Of a stretch of 9,459 nucleotides of DNA, positions 1-9,459 are shown in pieces. Both the position numbers and the translations under genes were made by a program. The notes beneath the pieces were generated by a model, which made no database searches, was not told where the DNA came from, and saw nothing but the letters and a program-made list of their open reading frames with translations. The DNA is from Candidatus Latescibacterota bacterium. Lineage in GTDB: Bacteria; JAAXHH01; JACQVL01. Every line of letters starts with the position of its first letter. Within the stretch, counting starts at the first letter, position 1. The stretch covers positions 1 to 9,459 of the forward strand of contig JACQVL010000106.1 of assembly GCA_016209865.1 (NCBI GenBank). The letters are read 5' to 3'.

Positions 1-2726
1 CCGACAAGCCCGCCAACTAACGCATTCCAGCTCCGAAAGCGATCAGTCGGATAGTTAATCTCCGGGAAGGGGCTGTACCGGAACCGCCCGCGCGCTGTCC
101 GCGATTCAGCAAACAGACCGGCAGCGATCAGACGCATCAGGTTGAGCGCCTCAGCGGCCGCCGTGCACTGGTGGTAACGGATCAGCCCGAACGCAAGATA
201 ACCAGTCATGAACGGCACCGCGCCGCGATAGTTCCAGCATCCATGAATCTCATCGAAAATCCCCCGCCTCGGCTCCACATACACGCGAACGGCCTCCATC
301 AGGTCGCGGGCTTTGGCAAGAAAGCGTGGGTCTCCCGTCTGATCATACCAGCGGATGACCTGGGCGAGCGGCCAGCCGACGTTCCGCGCGGAACGCCCCC
401 ACGGGTCGCAGTCGAGCAGGTGCTCCGCAAGTCCCTTCGCAGCGTCCAAACTATCTGGATCCCCCGTTATCAAGTAGTGATCGAGCAGTCCGTCGCAGTT
501 CAGCCCGATATTTCCCATCGGGCCGCATGAGGTGTGATCCTCTCCGTAGCTGTGGGTGGCGCCGGCCCAATCAGGATGCTCAGGACAGAAGTGAATGATA
601 TCCACCTCTCGAGTATGCGTACAGGCCGCGTCGAAGTACCGGAACCACTGCGGAGACCCGGTCTCGATGTACTGGATCAGCCCCAGATGGGTGCGCCCGC
701 GGTAGTCGTTGCTCCAGGCGGTGTCCCAGTATTCGCGGTGTCCCAGCCGTGGAGCGCGGATGCCCGTCCGCTCGATCACCGGGGTCATCCGCTCCGCCCA
801 GGCTGCCAGTCCCGGCGTGTGACGCGGCGGCCCGGTCTCGACGACGCCTGACGCGATGAACCACGACTGGTTGAAGAGACGGGGCGCATCCTGGACGCAC
901 CGGTTGAACCGCTCCGCTTCATGAGAGGAGACGGTGCCGTCGTGGAGCCAGAGCGCAAACGTTTGGCGCTTTGCCTCACCGCGGCCGATGCGGGCGCTCG
1001 GACGGTCGTGCGGCCAGCTCAACGCATCCTGCCCTTCCGGGAGCGTCGCCAGGCTCAACAGGTCGGGACGGACGATGATCCCTGTGGGGAATTCCTCCGC
1101 AAACCACCGCATCGCCCCGACCACCCCTCCGTCGGCGTGCCGGAGGTTGATGAACCCGGCAGCCTGCCCGGTGGTCGCCACCCACGAGGTGTTCCGATAG
1201 ATGCGTGCCTCATCCGCGCGCTCCTGCCGGCAACTGACCTCGGCATCCCGGTACAAGGGTATGGCACGGGCCTGCTCGATCGTACCGTGGTGGCCCATCG
1301 CCTTGACGCCGATATCGTCCGGGTCGTGGCCTGGGGTAAACGGCCCGAAGTCCACGGTAGCGTTCTCCAGGCCGGGTAGACGAACCCGCGCCGACCAGTC
1401 CAACAGCATAGCCATCGCCTGGTCGGACTCGTTCACCAGACGCCAGTCGACCAGGAGGTAGGGGAGTCCTGCCCAGACGTGGAGCCGGACACGCCATGGC
1501 CCGAACCGCTGACCCTTCTCGTCGAGCATGTCCCCGTCGAGGCGGACGACCGCGCAAAGCGGGCTGGTCCGCTCGATGACGACGCAACGACGCTGTGCAG
1601 TGAAGTGGTCCCGCCAGCCGACACGGTTGAGCTTGATCGACAGGTCGATTCGCCCGACATCGAGGCCGGACGCACACGCGATGCCGTCAAACACCCCCGC
1701 GCCCGTCTGCTGGCCTACCCTCAGGGTCATGGCTCCGTTGGTGACGGTGGTGATGCCGTTTCGCGTCCGCACGCGGACAGGCTGCGCCGGTCTGGCCGGC
1801 TCTGCGTCTGGCATCAGCCGATAGCGGCCGTTTCTCGTCGCGATGAACTCGCATAAGAGCCACCGGACGCTGCCGTCAGGCCAGTGACTGATCTCGGTGG
1901 AGACAGAAGGGATCGACTGTCCTTGCGGGTCGCGCAGCGCAAACGTCGTGTCTGGGCTGACTGATCCTCTGGGCATCGGGACGCCCGTCCGCACCGGGTA
2001 GCCGGGAGAGGGGAGCCTGCCGGACGTCACGAGGGAGAAGGGGAGACCGGTCTTCGGCAGCGCACGGCGACGGCTTTTCCGGCGTCTGATGGGGACCGAC
2101 TGTTCCTCTGGCCGTACCGCCTGATGACTTGCAGTCAGGTACACATCCCCGAAATAGGCCGAGGTCTGGAAATTTTTCACTGCGTCGTGCGGGTTGAACA
2201 CGCTCCATGAAAAACGTTTGTACGTATCGCCGGGCAGGTGCGTCGTGCTGGCGACTTTATCCACCACCCGGAAGGTGAGCACGATCTCGCTGGCGACAGC
2301 GTTCGTGATCTCGACGACACGGTAGGGATCATGATAACCCGGCCATCCGGGGCCTGCGGACTGAGACCTCGGGTCGACCATCTCCTCATCGGCCACGTCC
2401 TGCTCCCAGACCAGACGGCCGTTGACGAGCAATTGCTTAAACCTGTGTCCGATGAATGCCTGCGTCCCCGTCCAGGCATCCTCATGCCAGGTGCCCGAGT
2501 AGTTGTCCGACTGATAGAACGAGACAAAAAGTGGTTCACCCGCACGCCAGCCCGCAGGCGGAGTGACGGTGACTTTCCATTCCCCGAACCCTCCTGCGCG
2601 GCTGGGTCTCCACGGATGCTCGGCGACCAGAAGCTGCCGGGTGGAATCGCGGTGTGTGACGAAGCCCCGCGTCTGCTTACTTTTCCACGCCTTGAGCGGG
2701 ATCAGTTTCGGTCGGGCGTTGGCCAT
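1..2726 (-). CDS. PcRGLX/YetA-family protein (exo-rhamnogalacturonan lyase-like), N-terminal 908 residues, 3' end outside window
   Basis: One uninterrupted frame runs from ATG at 2726 to the left edge. The start is set by GGAGGG just upstream, overlapping the stop of the preceding esterase gene. Seen: no signal peptide; a beta-rich N-terminal domain (about residues 45-200, with a VNGRLVWEQD strand typical of sugar-binding jelly rolls); a very basic linker (about 205-225, RRRKSRRR). The next block (about 226-325) has TGVPMPRGSV (247-256) and WPDGSVRWLL (282-291), the hallmarks of the PcRGLX/YetA N-terminal RIFT barrel. A beta-sandwich follows (about 326-600). Then comes an alpha/alpha-toroid-like part with EYWDTAWSND (665-674), REVDIIHF (706-713), HSYGEDH (725-731) and GLLDHYLITGD (746-756). 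Known members with these three domains include fungal exo-rhamnogalacturonan lyase PcRGLX (family PL26) and Bacillus YetA. Family assignment is good. Pectic substrate and lyase activity are inferred. The absent signal peptide suggests a cytoplasmic enzyme acting on imported oligosaccharides, unless it is exported another way. Confidence 0.82.
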   Translation of the reverse strand, partial: MANARPKLIPLKAWKSKQTRGFVTHRDSTRQLLVAEHPWRPSRAGGFGEWKVTVTPPAGWRAGEPLFVSFYQSDNYSGTWHEDAWTGTQAFIGHRFKQLLVNGRLVWEQDVADEEMVDPRSQSAGPGWPGYHDPYRVVEITNAVASEIVLTFRVVDKVASTTHLPGDTYKRFSWSVFNPHDAVKNFQTSAYFGDVYLTASHQAVRPEEQSVPIRRRKSRRRALPKTGLPFSLVTSGRLPSPGYPVRTGVPMPRGSVSPDTTFALRDPQGQSIPSVSTEISHWPDGSVRWLLCEFIATRNGRYRLMPDAEPARPAQPVRVRTRNGITTVTNGAMTLRVGQQTGAGVFDGIACASGLDVGRIDLSIKLNRVGWRDHFTAQRRCVVIERTSPLCAVVRLDGDMLDEKGQRFGPWRVRLHVWAGLPYLLVDWRLVNESDQAMAMLLDWSARVRLPGLENATVDFGPFTPGHDPDDIGVKAMGHHGTIEQARAIPLYRDAEVSCRQERADEARIYRNTSWVATTGQAAGFINLRHADGGVVGAMRWFAEEFPTGIIVRPDLLSLATLPEGQDALSWPHDRPSARIGRGEAKRQTFALWLHDGTVSSHEAERFNRCVQDAPRLFNQSWFIASGVVETGPPRHTPGLAAWAERMTPVIERTGIRAPRLGHREYWDTAWSNDYRGRTHLGLIQYIETGSPQWFRYFDAACTHTREVDIIHFCPEHPDWAGATHSYGEDHTSCGPMGNIGLNCDGLLDHYLITGDPDSLDAAKGLAEHLLDCDPWGRSARNVGWPLAQVIRWYDQTGDPRFLAKARDLMEAVRVYVEPRRGIFDEIHGCWNYRGAVPFMTGYLAFGLIRYHQCTAAAEALNLMRLIAAGLFAESRTARGRFRYSPFPEINYPTDRFRSWNALVGGLV

Positions 2727-2736
2727 CGTCCCTCCA

Positions 2737-3936
2737 TTAGCCTGCCGCTTCAGCGTCGGGTGTCTTCAGATGGCGGTCCAGCCAGGTGAACGCTTCGTCT
2801 TGGATATCCGCGTCGTAGCAATGCGGCTTGGGCGGGTTGTGATGGCGGAATTTGTCGGGACACCCGGCCCACTCATACCCTGAGCGAATCTGGCGTGCCG
2901 CCTCCTGCTGTCCTTCGGGCGGGAAGAGCAAGTCTTCGCTCGTGCTGACGACCATGCTGGCGTTGGGCGCGGCCATGATCGTCAGGTCGGGCACGTCGAG
3001 GCGATCCCACACGCCAGGCAGCAGGCAGAACGTCCCGATCGCCCCGCTGACGTTGTACACCTGCTGGTAGTCGCCGGTCGTCATCCATCCGACGCTCACC
3101 GACGCTTTGACCCGCCGGTCGAGGGCGGTCAAGATGTTCGTCCGCCAGCCGCCCCCGGAGAGGCCGGTGCAGCCGATGCGGGCCGCGTCCACTTCCGGCC
3201 GGCTGATCAGATAATCGACGCAGCGGCTGTCGTCCCAGTAATTGACCCCCATCCAGGTCGTCCCCGCCCAGTTCAATTGCCGGACGCCCAGGTAGAGCTG
3301 CTCCTGGACCAGGTTGTCCAGGGCGGCGTACTCGCGGACCGACAGCGCGAACGGGTCGTAGTCGGCAGGAATCCCATTCAGCCCGCGCGGGGCCCGTTCC
3401 CCAAAATGATGCGCGTCGATCACGATAACCGCGTACCCCCGTTTCGCAAATTCTTCCGCCAAAAAGCGCCCGCTGTAACATTCATTGCGATGCTCGACGA
3501 GGACGGGATGATCCCGGCCGGTGTTGACCATCCGTTCCTTGCCGAACAGCATCGGGCCGCCCCAGGCATGAAAGACGACCAGGCCCGGAACCGGGTGCGT
3601 GATCCCCTTCGGAAGGAGAAAGTACCCCTGCACTCGAACCCAGGGCGTCGTGTTGAACGCGACGTGCTCAAGGATGAAGTCGGGCCGTTCCGTCCGGTCG
3701 AGGGTTTCAGGCTGAAGGTTGAGCGGGCCGGGGTCGTAGTGGAGTCCGTCCAGCAGACAGTGCTGAGCGGCCTGGCGCCATTCCTCGAACGTCCCGGACG
3801 GATGAACTTGACGCCACCGATCCGCGTTGAGGTCGAGGGGACGATGCTCCCGGATCCCCCGGATCATGCCTTCGAGGCTTCCGTAGGCACACAACGGCGC
3901 ACGGGAAATCTTCAAATCGTGGTGAGGGACTCGCAT
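2737..3936 (-). CDS. Alpha/beta-hydrolase family esterase (acetyl-xylan-esterase/dienelactone-hydrolase-like)
   Basis: 399 residues, ATG start with GAGGA six bases upstream. Seen: about 100 N-terminal residues before the hydrolase core; strand GLVVFHAWGG (118-127) forming the oxyanion-hole region; AVIVIDAHHFGER (169-181); and a nucleophile elbow CTGLSGGGWRT (256-266) giving Ser260. The likely acid is Asp335 in STSEDLLFPP and the likely base His372 in KPHCYD, followed by a helix ending FTWLDRHLK as in many carbohydrate esterases. There is no signal peptide. The family removes acyl or ester groups; the exact leaving group cannot be read here. Its stop lies 10 bases before the PcRGLX-like start, so the two are probably translated together, consistent with de-esterifying the glycan or oligosaccharide that the lyase-like protein attacks. 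A peptidase of the same fold is possible but less likely. Confidence 0.8.
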   Translation of the reverse strand: MRVPHHDLKISRAPLCAYGSLEGMIRGIREHRPLDLNADRWRQVHPSGTFEEWRQAAQHCLLDGLHYDPGPLNLQPETLDRTERPDFILEHVAFNTTPWVRVQGYFLLPKGITHPVPGLVVFHAWGGPMLFGKERMVNTGRDHPVLVEHRNECYSGRFLAEEFAKRGYAVIVIDAHHFGERAPRGLNGIPADYDPFALSVREYAALDNLVQEQLYLGVRQLNWAGTTWMGVNYWDDSRCVDYLISRPEVDAARIGCTGLSGGGWRTNILTALDRRVKASVSVGWMTTGDYQQVYNVSGAIGTFCLLPGVWDRLDVPDLTIMAAPNASMVVSTSEDLLFPPEGQQEAARQIRSGYEWAGCPDKFRHHNPPKPHCYDADIQDEAFTWLDRHLKTPDAEAAG

Positions 3937-3968: not shown

Positions 3969-4628
3969 TTATCGCTCTGGAGCGTCGACAGACAGCGGGA
4001 GACCAAGACGACGGCGTATCTCTTCCTGAATCTCGAGTGAACTCCGTGTCCCATCGATGTCCACGATGAGTGCCTTCTGGCGAAACAGGTCGAGGATGGG
4101 CTCCGTCTTGGCGTGGTAGTCGTTGAGCCGGCCACGCACCGCTTCTGGGGTATCATCGGGTCGCGGGATGAGTTTTCCTTTACAGACATCGCAGACGTCG
4201 GCAACCGCAGGCCGATGATAGATGAGGTTATAGTCGAGGCCGCAGCCAGAGCAGAGACGGCGGCTCAGGATGCGCTCCATGACGATCGCGTCCGGGACGA
4301 CGATATGGATGACGGCATCGATGTCGTATGTCTCCAGGAAGAACTCCGCCTGCGGCCGGTTCCTCGGAAACCCGTCGAGGATGAACCCGTAGTTCCAATC
4401 GTGCTGGTCGAGACGGGACCGGACGATCTCATCCACCAGCTCATCAGGAACCAACTCACCGGCCGCCACGATCCGCTTGACCCGCGCCCCGAGCTTGGTG
4501 TGGTTCTGGATGTTCCAGCGGAAGATATCTCCCACGCTGATGTGGACGAGGTCGAAATCCTTCTTCAGCATCCCCGCCTGAGTGCCTTTGCCGCTCCCCT
4601 GCGCGCCCATGATGATATACTTGCGCAT
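3969..4628 (-). CDS. adk: Adenylate kinase / nucleoside monophosphate kinase with Cys4 zinc LID
   Basis: 219 residues, the normal length for a long-form adenylate kinase (AMP + ATP = 2 ADP, cytoplasmic). Seen: P-loop GAQGSGKGTQ (8-17); NMP-binding segment ISVGDIFR (30-37); ELVPDELV (58-65); DGFPR (85-89) with Gln93; Arg119 and Arg123; a LID with Cys126, Cys129, Cys146 and Cys149 placed to bind zinc; and RPDD with Arg156 and Arg167. All arginines that contact nucleotide in E. coli Adk are present. Odd: the usual Pro of GAPGxGKGT is Gln10, and the Thr of ISTGD, which contacts AMP, is Val32. ATG at 4628 follows a GAGGAG site. The gene lies 69 bases after the dehydratase and 32 before the esterase, in the middle of a sugar-acid operon and not beside secY/map as in the usual spc operon, so it may be a second copy. 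Function as an NMP kinase is near certain; AMP as the preferred substrate is likely. Confidence 0.93.
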   Translation of the reverse strand: MRKYIIMGAQGSGKGTQAGMLKKDFDLVHISVGDIFRWNIQNHTKLGARVKRIVAAGELVPDELVDEIVRSRLDQHDWNYGFILDGFPRNRPQAEFFLETYDIDAVIHIVVPDAIVMERILSRRLCSGCGLDYNLIYHRPAVADVCDVCKGKLIPRPDDTPEAVRGRLNDYHAKTEPILDLFRQKALIVDIDGTRSSLEIQEEIRRRLGLPLSVDAPER

Positions 4629-4697: not shown

Positions 4698-5786
4698 TTA
4701 TTGATAAACACAGTTCTGTTCCGCCTCTTTCTCGTCGATCTCAAACCCCAGGCCGGGCCTCGTCGGCAGGTCGATGTGCCCGTCCCTGACCTGCCAGTCT
4801 TCGCGGAGCAGCCCGGCGCCCAAGCTCTGGTCGATCTGCTCCTGGATGAGGAAGTTCGGGACGACCGCGTCGACGTGCAGGGCAGCCGCCAGGGCGACCG
4901 GGCCGATGGCGCAATGGGGCATGAGGTGGATGTAATACACCTCCGCCATGTTGGCCACCTTCTTGAGCTCGGTGATCCCGCCCACGTGCGACGTGTCGGG
5001 CTGGATGTAGGCGACCGCGTGCTTCTCGAAGATGTCACGGAACCCCCAACGGGTCAGCAGACGCTCCCCGGTGGCGATCGGGTAGGACACATGGTCGGAG
5101 ACGAGCTTCAGCGCATCGACGTTCTCCTGCGGCACCGGCTCCTCCACGAACATCGGGCGCATGCCCTTCAGTTCGTTGCAGACCTCGATGGCGAACGCCG
5201 GAGTCATCTTGCCGTGGAAATCGAACGCCAGTTCGACGTTCGGGCCGACCCACTCCCGCATCAGGTACGCGCGTTCGACGAACTCATCGATGACCGCCGG
5301 CGGTTCGTGTCCCCGCCATTTCCCGCCGGGACCGGATTTAAACGCGGTATACCCTCCCGTGCGTTGCAGCCATTCTAATCGCTCTTTCGCGGCGGCTTTC
5401 CCTTCGTCCGTCAGGTTCGGGATGCCCCAGTGGGCGTACACGCGGACCCGGTCGCGCGCCGCTCCGCCTAAGAGCTGGTAGACCGGCACGCCGACATGCT
5501 TGCCCGCGATGTCCCAGAGCGCCTGGTCGATGCCCGATAGGGCGCTCATCAAGATCGGCCCGCCCCGGAAGAACGCGGAGCGGTAGATGTGCTGCCAGTG
5601 GTGCTCGATGCGCAGCGGGTCTTTTCCGATGAGGTAGCCTGCGAGCTCCTCGACGGCGGCGGTCGTGCTCTTCGGTTTCCCCTCAAGCGTCGTCTCTCCC
5701 CAGCCGACGAGACCGGTGTCGGTCGTGACCTTGACGAGCCGCACCCGCGGGCGGGGGAAGAACTGGTCGATGCGGACGATGTTCAC
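4698..5786 (-). CDS. Enolase-superfamily acid-sugar dehydratase (D-galactonate dehydratase-like)
   Basis: 362 residues, GTG start at 5786 supported by AGGAGA eight bases upstream. It resembles E. coli DgoD over its length, from the N-terminal capping domain (GWGETTLEG, 28-36; FRGGPILMSALSGIDQALWD, 73-92) through the barrel. Aligned by eye with DgoD, the metal ligands are Asp189 (FDFHG), Glu215 (FVEEP) and Glu241 (TGER). The acid/base histidines are His191 and His291 (MPHCAIGP), and Asp264 (QPDTSH) supports His291. All sit at a constant six-residue offset from DgoD, so the active site is intact. Members dehydrate aldonic or aldaric acids to 2-keto-3-deoxy acids. D-galactonate is the best guess, but close paralogues act on gluconate, mannonate, rhamnonate or other acids and specificity cannot be read safely by eye. 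The C-terminus (after PGLGFEID) is shorter than in DgoD. It sits 90 bases downstream of the dioxygenase gene in the same operon. Confidence 0.88.
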   Translation of the reverse strand: MNIVRIDQFFPRPRVRLVKVTTDTGLVGWGETTLEGKPKSTTAAVEELAGYLIGKDPLRIEHHWQHIYRSAFFRGGPILMSALSGIDQALWDIAGKHVGVPVYQLLGGAARDRVRVYAHWGIPNLTDEGKAAAKERLEWLQRTGGYTAFKSGPGGKWRGHEPPAVIDEFVERAYLMREWVGPNVELAFDFHGKMTPAFAIEVCNELKGMRPMFVEEPVPQENVDALKLVSDHVSYPIATGERLLTRWGFRDIFEKHAVAYIQPDTSHVGGITELKKVANMAEVYYIHLMPHCAIGPVALAAALHVDAVVPNFLIQEQIDQSLGAGLLREDWQVRDGHIDLPTRPGLGFEIDEKEAEQNCVYQ

Positions 5787-5876: not shown

Positions 5877-6665
5877 TCACACTCGCATGCGCAGCATCGG
5901 GTTGGTAAACGAGACGCGGATGTACTCACCGGAGTGGAGCGATTTGGTGCCGGGGGTCATGAAATGGATGATGAACGCCCGGCGCTGGCGGTCGGTCGTG
6001 TTCGGCGCGGTGTAGTGCAGGGTCTGGCAATGGTGGAGCATCGCGCCGCCGGCCGGCAGGTCGATCACCACCGCCTTAGACGCGTCGACCGTGTCCCCCA
6101 GGTCGAGGAGGGCGTTCGTGGATGCGGACCGTGGATGCATGAGCGGGCGGAGATGCGAGCCGGGGAGGAGCTGCATCGCCCCGTTGCGGACGTCGGCGTC
6201 GTCGAGGGTCATCCAGCAACTCACTAAATTGGCGGGGACGCATCGCCAGTACGCGTTGTCCTGGTGCCAGAAGACCGGCCCGCCGTGGCGCGCGGGCTTG
6301 TACAGGGCTTGATCGTGGAACAACTGAATGTTTGGGCCGAGCAGGGGTTCGACAAGGTCGAGGATCTGGTCGTTGTACAGCAGCCGCCTGAAGTGAACGT
6401 TCCGTTCGCACATCTGCATGATCTGGAGCATCTGGACCTCGGCGTTGTTCTTGGCGTCCAGGTCATCCGTGTTGTCGATGGCGAGGTTGCGGAAGCCCCC
6501 GTGTTGGTGGGCCAGCTCAAACTCACGGTCGTACTCGCGGCGCAGCAACTCGACCAGGTCATCGTCGAGCAGTTTGCCGATTCTCAGGTAGCCGTGCTCT
6601 CGGAAGCTGTCGACCTGTTCCGGCGTCAACGTGATGCGGTCAGTCGTCGATGCGGTCGCGGCCAT
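5877..6665 (-). CDS. Phytanoyl-CoA dioxygenase (PhyH) family Fe(II)/2-oxoglutarate oxygenase
   Basis: 262 residues starting at ATG 6665, preceded by GGAGGAG seven bases upstream. The frame stays open to 6815, but that extension translates a palindromic repeat (HSRAGGNP) and has no family similarity, so the internal start is preferred. Seen: N-terminal LTPEQVDSFREHGYLRI (13-29), typical of PhyH proteins; iron-binding WHQDNAYW (133-140) giving His134 and Asp136; a jelly-roll segment NGAMQLLPGSH (161-171); and HHCQTLHYTAPNTTDRQRRAF (from 211), where His217 is the probable third iron ligand and Arg226-Arg229 supplies the 2-oxoglutarate-binding arginine. Known members hydroxylate or oxidatively demethylate small molecules using oxygen and 2-oxoglutarate. 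The substrate is unknown. As first gene of the operon with an acid-sugar dehydratase it may oxidise a modified sugar, but that is inference. It is cytoplasmic; no signal peptide is seen. Confidence 0.88.
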   Translation of the reverse strand: MAATASTTDRITLTPEQVDSFREHGYLRIGKLLDDDLVELLRREYDREFELAHQHGGFRNLAIDNTDDLDAKNNAEVQMLQIMQMCERNVHFRRLLYNDQILDLVEPLLGPNIQLFHDQALYKPARHGGPVFWHQDNAYWRCVPANLVSCWMTLDDADVRNGAMQLLPGSHLRPLMHPRSASTNALLDLGDTVDASKAVVIDLPAGGAMLHHCQTLHYTAPNTTDRQRRAFIIHFMTPGTKSLHSGEYIRVSFTNPMLRMRV

Positions 6666-8778: not shown

Positions 8779-9459
8779 TCACGTGATCTCGAAGTCGACG
8801 AGTTCGCGGGTGCCCTGAAAGATGAGTCCATCGTGGCCGACTTCTTCGGCGCCGGTCATGATGCCCAGAATCGCTTCACGCGGCCAGCCTTCGCCGTGGA
8901 TGATCGGATACGATGGAATCTCCGTCGGTAAGTAGAGCCGCGCCTTGATCAGGTCCTGCATGACCAGGTCCTTTACTGGAATACTCCGGAAGAGCCGGTC
9001 CTGGTCGTCGAGGTGGTACGCGTCGATGGTGTCGGGCAGGCCGAGTCCGTCGTAGCCGACGAGGCGGTAGATGATAGACAGCGCGTCCGTTTCGCGTAAG
9101 CCGGGGTTGGCCTCCTGGAGAAACCGGGCCCATACGATCAGCGTATTGACGACGAACGCCGGGATGTGGGAGACCAGCGGGCTGGCGAAGTCCGAGAATT
9201 CGGCCCAGTCGGCGTGGTTGTGGCCCACGAACAGCGACAGTGAGGCCGGATGGGTATCCGTCCCGAAGATGATGTCTGGCCCGGCCGCCCTGTGGACTTC
9301 CCGGTGGAAGCGTTTCAGGTTCCTGGTTAACAGCTCAGTCCGGAAGCGGAACCAGTCGATCAGACCGGATTGTCCGCCCAGGAGTTGGAGGAAATCGAAC
9401 GGCCCCATCCCCTGCCGGCAGGCGGTGGTCAGCAGCCTGGCATTCAGGCTCTGGAGCCG
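8779..9459 (-). CDS. Putative TIM-barrel glycosidase, C-terminal 227 codons only (5' end outside window)
   Basis: The minus-strand frame is open from the right edge to TGA at 8781-8779; the ATG at 9408 is internal, as 17 sense codons precede it. I do not recognise a named family. Seen: WFRFRTELLTRNLKRFHREV, resembling the helix before a barrel strand in glycosidases; DIIFGTDTHP; FVGHNHADW; a block with GYDGLGLPDTID; and near the end YPIIHGEGWP followed by GHDGLIFQGTRELVDF, which look like the last two strands of a beta/alpha barrel. The Glu in HGEGWP and the Asp residues in GTDTHP and GYDGLGLPD are candidate catalytic residues. Glycosidase-like function is inferred from pattern and context only. 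It converges on the dehydrogenase gene with 9 bases between stops, so it is not in the same operon. Confidence 0.6.
   Translation of the reverse strand, partial: RLQSLNARLLTTACRQGMGPFDFLQLLGGQSGLIDWFRFRTELLTRNLKRFHREVHRAAGPDIIFGTDTHPASLSLFVGHNHADWAEFSDFASPLVSHIPAFVVNTLIVWARFLQEANPGLRETDALSIIYRLVGYDGLGLPDTIDAYHLDDQDRLFRSIPVKDLVMQDLIKARLYLPTEIPSYPIIHGEGWPREAILGIMTGAEEVGHDGLIFQGTRELVDFEIT

Follow-up and report, generated by a model that had tools for sequence, protein, structure and literature searches.

Gene cluster and the encoded adenylate kinase

The window, by which we mean the whole 9,459-nucleotide stretch analysed (contig JACQVL010000106.1 of a Candidatus Latescibacterota bacterium), carries five genes on the same strand in the order PhyH-type dioxygenase, DgoD-like protein, adenylate kinase (Adk), esterase and PcRGLX-like protein (Table 1). 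The gaps between them, taken in that order, are 90, 69, 32 and 10 bp, so that adk is flanked by 69 and 32 bp. The DgoD-like gene is probably co-transcribed with adk. The GC content of adk is 59.5%, versus 63–65% for its neighbours in the window. Separately, positions 8779–9459 of the same strand encode a protein of at least 226 residues which is cut by the contig end and has no Pfam or NCBIfam match.

Table 1. Features of the adk cluster. Residue counts are in E. coli numbering, for 57 clade members and 43 other Adks.
Feature	Positions	Strand	Evidence or remarks
PhyH-type dioxygenase (phyH), first cluster gene	5877..6665	(-)	PF05721
DgoD-like gene (galactonate dehydratase family), upstream of adk	4698..5786	(-)	PRK14017, 403 bits versus cut-off 311
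Accessory adenylate kinase, 219 aa	3969..4628	(-)	PF00406, PF05191 and TIGR01351 over cut-off; own clade
Gln10 codon, P-loop (E. coli Pro9)	4599..4601	(-)	Gln 42/57 in clade; Pro 42/43 in other Adks
Val32 codon (E. coli Thr31, AMP site)	4533..4535	(-)	Val 57/57 in clade; Thr/Ser 42/43 elsewhere
Phe36-Arg37-Trp38 codons (E. coli Leu35-Arg36-Ala37)	4515..4523	(-)	Phe 56/57, Arg 57/57, Trp 56/57
Zinc LID, Cys126 to Cys149	4182..4253	(-)	PF05191; sequence
Alpha/beta hydrolase (acetyl-xylan-esterase-like), downstream of adk	2737..3936	(-)	PF12715, PF05448
PcRGLX-like protein, runs off contig	3..2726	(-)	PF19501, PF21345

The adk gene is a complete, uninterrupted reading frame encoding a P-loop, an NMP site and a four-cysteine zinc LID of the form C-x2-C-x16-C-x2-C (Cys126, Cys129, Cys146 and Cys149). 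Its product scores 149 bits against PF00406 (Pfam cut-off 26.8), 43 bits against the zinc-LID model PF05191 (over the Pfam cut-off) and 210 bits against TIGR01351 (NCBIfam cut-off 168). The frame, these scores and the short gaps bear out the first-pass annotation, which had described a full-length zinc-LID Adk lying third in a tight five-gene cluster. Only the broad TIGR01351 model is passed; the protein falls below every NCBIfam equivalog cut-off, including that of the housekeeping model PRK00279 (222.5 versus 251 bits), and lies far under that of the UMP/CMP kinase model TIGR01359 (108.7 versus 207.6 bits). NCBIfam thus holds no curated model for this subfamily. Its top-scoring PDB entries are Adks of the Bacillus type or variants of these.

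The source genome is a 3.75 Mb metagenome-assembled genome (MAG), 83% complete, which contains exactly two Adk matches, 40% identical to each other. The second copy (G000:C214) lies between secY and map and holds the spc-operon place in which the window gene is not found. The window gene is therefore a paralogue, as had been proposed, and not a relocated housekeeping gene. Relocation had been expected if this were the sole adk of the genome in a neighbourhood unshared by relatives; the neighbourhood is indeed not conserved (see below), but the gene is not the sole copy. A second, ordinary Adk is evident in about 30 of 35 carrier genomes, and in 20 that were checked the other adk adjoins secY and/or map in 18 cases and encodes Thr31 in 18. 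We regard the assignment of the window gene as an accessory Adk as highly probable.

Phylogeny and AMP-site signature

When species-representative genomes were scanned, 68 loci emerged. About 50 of these encode proteins 59–73% identical to the window Adk and are distributed over Krumholzibacteriota, Planctomycetota, Acidobacteriota (Vicinamibacteria and Bryobacterales), Hydrogenedentota and Actinomycetota; the 18 others are a related short-LID group, wholly acidobacterial, with 45–50% identity to the window Adk. A tree was built from 90 sequences, including 43 comparison Adks with the genome's own housekeeping copy among them. One branch, supported at 100/100 and 1.34 changes per column long, separates the window type, the short-LID group and a group of two Krumholzibacteriota sequences from all 43 comparison Adks, so that the Adk tree proposed at the outset sets the window gene in a distinct clade. 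The open-access literature searched yielded no work on the subfamily or on exchanges at Thr31/Thr39, and the window adk apparently belongs to a distinct and uncharacterised Adk subfamily.

The two unusual residues pointed out earlier, Gln for Pro in the P-loop (GAQGSGKGT) and Val for Thr31 (ISVGD), are real, and two further changes in the same site, L35F and A37W, had been missed. In the alignment, both of the former are marks of the clade rather than private mutations (Gln at position 9 in 42/57), and the clade signature can be written as G-x-Q-G-[SC]-G-K-G-T ... H-I-S-V-G-D-I-F-R-W. Position 31 is Ile in 18/18 members of the short-LID group and Met in a further 2/2. At position 37, the residues listed for the 43 other Adks do not include Trp. 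Phe35 is not diagnostic by itself since it is also present in some housekeeping Adks, above all those of actinomycetes. Lys13, Asp84, Gln92 and the arginines at positions 36, 88, 119, 123, 156 and 167 are invariant in every group, and the P-loop Lys, the nucleotide-binding Arg residues and Gln92 are kept in 57/57 clade members; the earlier statement that all nucleotide-binding arginines are retained is thus confirmed. Given the invariance of these arginines and of Gln92, which reads adenine, the protein is likely to act as an adenylate kinase, and the window Adk is very probably catalytic. The overall pattern suggests that the enzyme is still active and that its AMP pocket has been retuned, a shift in NMP choice being unproven.

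A different reading of the same signature is that Val31, Phe35 and Trp37 reshape the NMP site such that dAMP, UMP, CMP or an unusual AMP analogue is preferred. The alteration of Thr31, Leu35 and position 37 together, followed by fixation across phyla, would fit such a substrate shift, and Thr31 is an AMP-site residue of E. coli Adk (UniProt P69441). We nevertheless consider the shift unlikely, since the invariant Gln92 and arginines favour AMP and the score against the UMP/CMP kinase profile is well short of its cut-off. Of the original suggestion, the altered NMP site stands, as a clade-wide feature, whereas the changed preference is disfavoured by these residues.

Distribution and gene neighbourhoods

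Carriage of the window-type adk is patchy: it is present in 10–12 of 78 Krumholzibacteriota, 8 of 139 Planctomycetota and one of 16 genomes in the window's own order, being absent from the 15 order-mates. No match above 43% was seen among the phage matches listed, and none in virus contigs. A plasmid vehicle was also rejected, the sole 62% 'plasmid' match being a chromosome-sized Nonomuraea record of 11.9 Mb. The simplest account is that the window adk was gained horizontally into a lineage-specific operon.

Genes in the compared loci were called with a codon-model caller. A gene for a universal stress protein (Usp, PF00582) is located about 60 bp upstream of adk in 16 Actinomadura-type loci (L055, L058, L059, L064, L066–L068, L070–L072, L075, L077, L079, L096, L098 and L100), and most Planctomycetota copies have no recurring neighbour gene. 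In six loci from Actinoplanes and relatives (L057, L061, L069, L073, L074 and L076), adk is directly preceded by a conserved protein of ~190 residues; the L073 copy, the sole one scanned, has no Pfam match. Several Krumholzibacteriota genomes (G093:C1:2063964-2064818, G095:C159, G135, G141, G169, G172, G177 and G190) contain frames of ~400–440 residues with two Adk-like stretches in tandem, possibly double-headed Adks.

The scattered phyletic and genomic positions would also be expected of a passenger gene, selfish or close to neutral, that moves horizontally and is retained with no dedicated role. Such a passenger would be at odds with the 57–73% identity seen between phyla, with the invariance of the catalytic residues and with the conserved Usp–Adk linkage, all of which point to purifying selection, and with its not being seen on virus contigs, on true plasmids or among the phage matches listed. 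We judge it quite improbable.

The first-pass annotation had also raised a role in the sugar-acid pathway, in which this adk would clear AMP formed by a ligase or kinase of the operon. The close spacing of the cluster would suit this proposal, as would the sister short-LID group, the adk of which is found roughly 10–40 bp downstream of an L-piperidine-6-carboxylate-dehydrogenase-like (aldehyde dehydrogenase) gene in 16 Acidobacteria loci (L080–L095). Against it, Pfam and NCBIfam reveal no AMP-forming enzyme in the window, and the sugar-acid cluster around adk recurs at no other locus among the relatives examined, so that the recurrence of adk beside DgoD/PhyH homologues that had been looked for was not found. 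All 15 order-mates have dgoD (75–82% identity) without this adk, three of them (G001, G011 and G013) have esterase relatives (63–71%), and the two genes lie at separate places. A part in the pathway is thus very unlikely. The operon is not common to the order-mates, and their dgoD and esterase are on separate contigs, which left no clean empty site for comparison. In genomes of the window's order, about 30–56 matches each belong to the enolase superfamily (DgoD-like), which amounts to a large repertoire of sugar-acid dehydratases.

That a foreign adk was joined into the contig by assembly or binning is hardly credible despite the short contig, the incomplete MAG and the lower GC content of adk, as the flanking dgoD and esterase have 63–82% relatives in order-mates, the frame is intact, the gaps are operon-like and a closer source sequence was not found.

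Polyphosphate kinases and proposed role

Genes for PPK2 polyphosphate:nucleotide kinases adjoin window-type adk in three phyla; the PPK2s were assigned to classes by the residue that follows Walker B (PMC8776046). In one Vicinamibacteria locus (L040), a two-domain polyphosphate:AMP phosphotransferase (702 bits against TIGR03708, cut-off 548) is encoded 33 bp upstream of adk, and the same pair is present at L035. In the planctomycete G268, a class I PPK2 (TIGR03707, over cut-off) lies directly upstream of adk on the same strand, and in five Micromonosporaceae the distance ranges from 46 bp (convergent) to 10 kb. The window itself has no PPK2 beside adk, that of the genome being on another contig. 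It is of the class II type (AMP to ADP), whereas those of the four order-mates examined are class I, a suggestive difference from one case.

Two observations concern gene structure at such loci. At L035 (6447-8651), PPK2 and adk form one 734-residue frame, where the near-identical L040 has two genes; the C-terminal half of PPK2 is apparently frameshifted and runs on into adk. In G092, an acidobacterium with a window-type Adk, a two-domain PPK2 (C289:7527-8963) lies ~1.7 kb from another Adk-like stretch (10633-11001) that is 37% identical and has an internal stop.

PPK2 is more frequent in carriers than in non-carriers in both Planctomycetota (8/8 versus 62/131, p = 0.003) and Krumholzibacteriota (7/10 versus 10/66, p = 0.0007), kinship being ignored in these tests, which were made without a species tree. 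For Krumholzibacteriota, p is 0.007 with close relatives collapsed, 0.05 when the comparison is limited to genomes of 3.2 Mb or more and 0.20 when the limit is 3.5 Mb. Genome size and ancestry are partial confounders of the enrichment. Of 31 further carrier genomes, 10 yielded no PPK2, that of Actinomadura madurae among them, and PPK2 is present in all genomes of the window's order although the order-mates have no window-type adk. Coupling of the accessory Adk to PPK2, as read from these genomes, is the likeliest physiological link but a tentative proposal.

On the sequence evidence, we favour with moderate confidence a horizontally acquired accessory Adk of a distinct subfamily that serves conditional adenylate balancing. 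Given the patchy branch, the altered AMP-site signature and the occasional position beside polyphosphate kinases, the enzyme probably serves as a spare or balances energy in times of stress, and does not belong to the sugar pathway. This accessory Adk would use a retuned AMP pocket to catalyse 2 ADP ↔ ATP + AMP, would act at high AMP and would be expressed with whichever operon took it in. Together with PPK2 it could work by two routes: AMP to ADP by class II PPK2 and then 2 ADP to ATP + AMP by Adk, or AMP to ADP by Adk and then ADP to ATP by class I PPK2. Either would regenerate ATP from stored polyphosphate. A more specific version, in which the pocket was retuned once (T31V/L35F/A37W) for the high-AMP, low-ATP state of PPK2 activity and this dedicated 'polyphosphate' Adk then spread between phyla as an energy rescue module, is doubtful.

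The accessory Adk resembles the housekeeping enzyme (TIGR01351; E. coli 1AKE and the zinc-LID Bacillus type 1ZIN) in family, zinc LID, catalytic arginines and Gln92; it differs in its separate clade, in T31V, L35F, A37W and, for most of the clade, P9Q, in its location away from secY and map and in its scores below the equivalog cut-offs. In Acinetobacter johnsonii 210A, according to Resnick and Zehnder (2000) as cited in PMC8776046, a polyphosphate:AMP phosphotransferase and Adk regenerate ATP. The same two kinds of enzyme are encoded by neighbouring genes at L035 and L040, but in that account they are separate enzymes and the Adk is the organism's own, whereas the present Adk comes from a clade of its own and its link to PPK2 is solely genomic. 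Adk activity associated with E. coli PPK1, as reported in PMC3163519, likewise pairs an adenylate kinase with a polyphosphate kinase, and differs in involving PPK1, the housekeeping Adk and an overexpression setting.

The clade may mark a polyphosphate-linked route of ATP rescue in uncultured phyla. Adk is a textbook enzyme for studies of dynamics and specificity, and since three normally conserved positions have changed together while the catalytic residues are kept and a normal copy resides in the same cell, the clade offers a ready-made natural test of what these AMP-site positions contribute to AMP affinity, AMP substrate inhibition and NMP choice.
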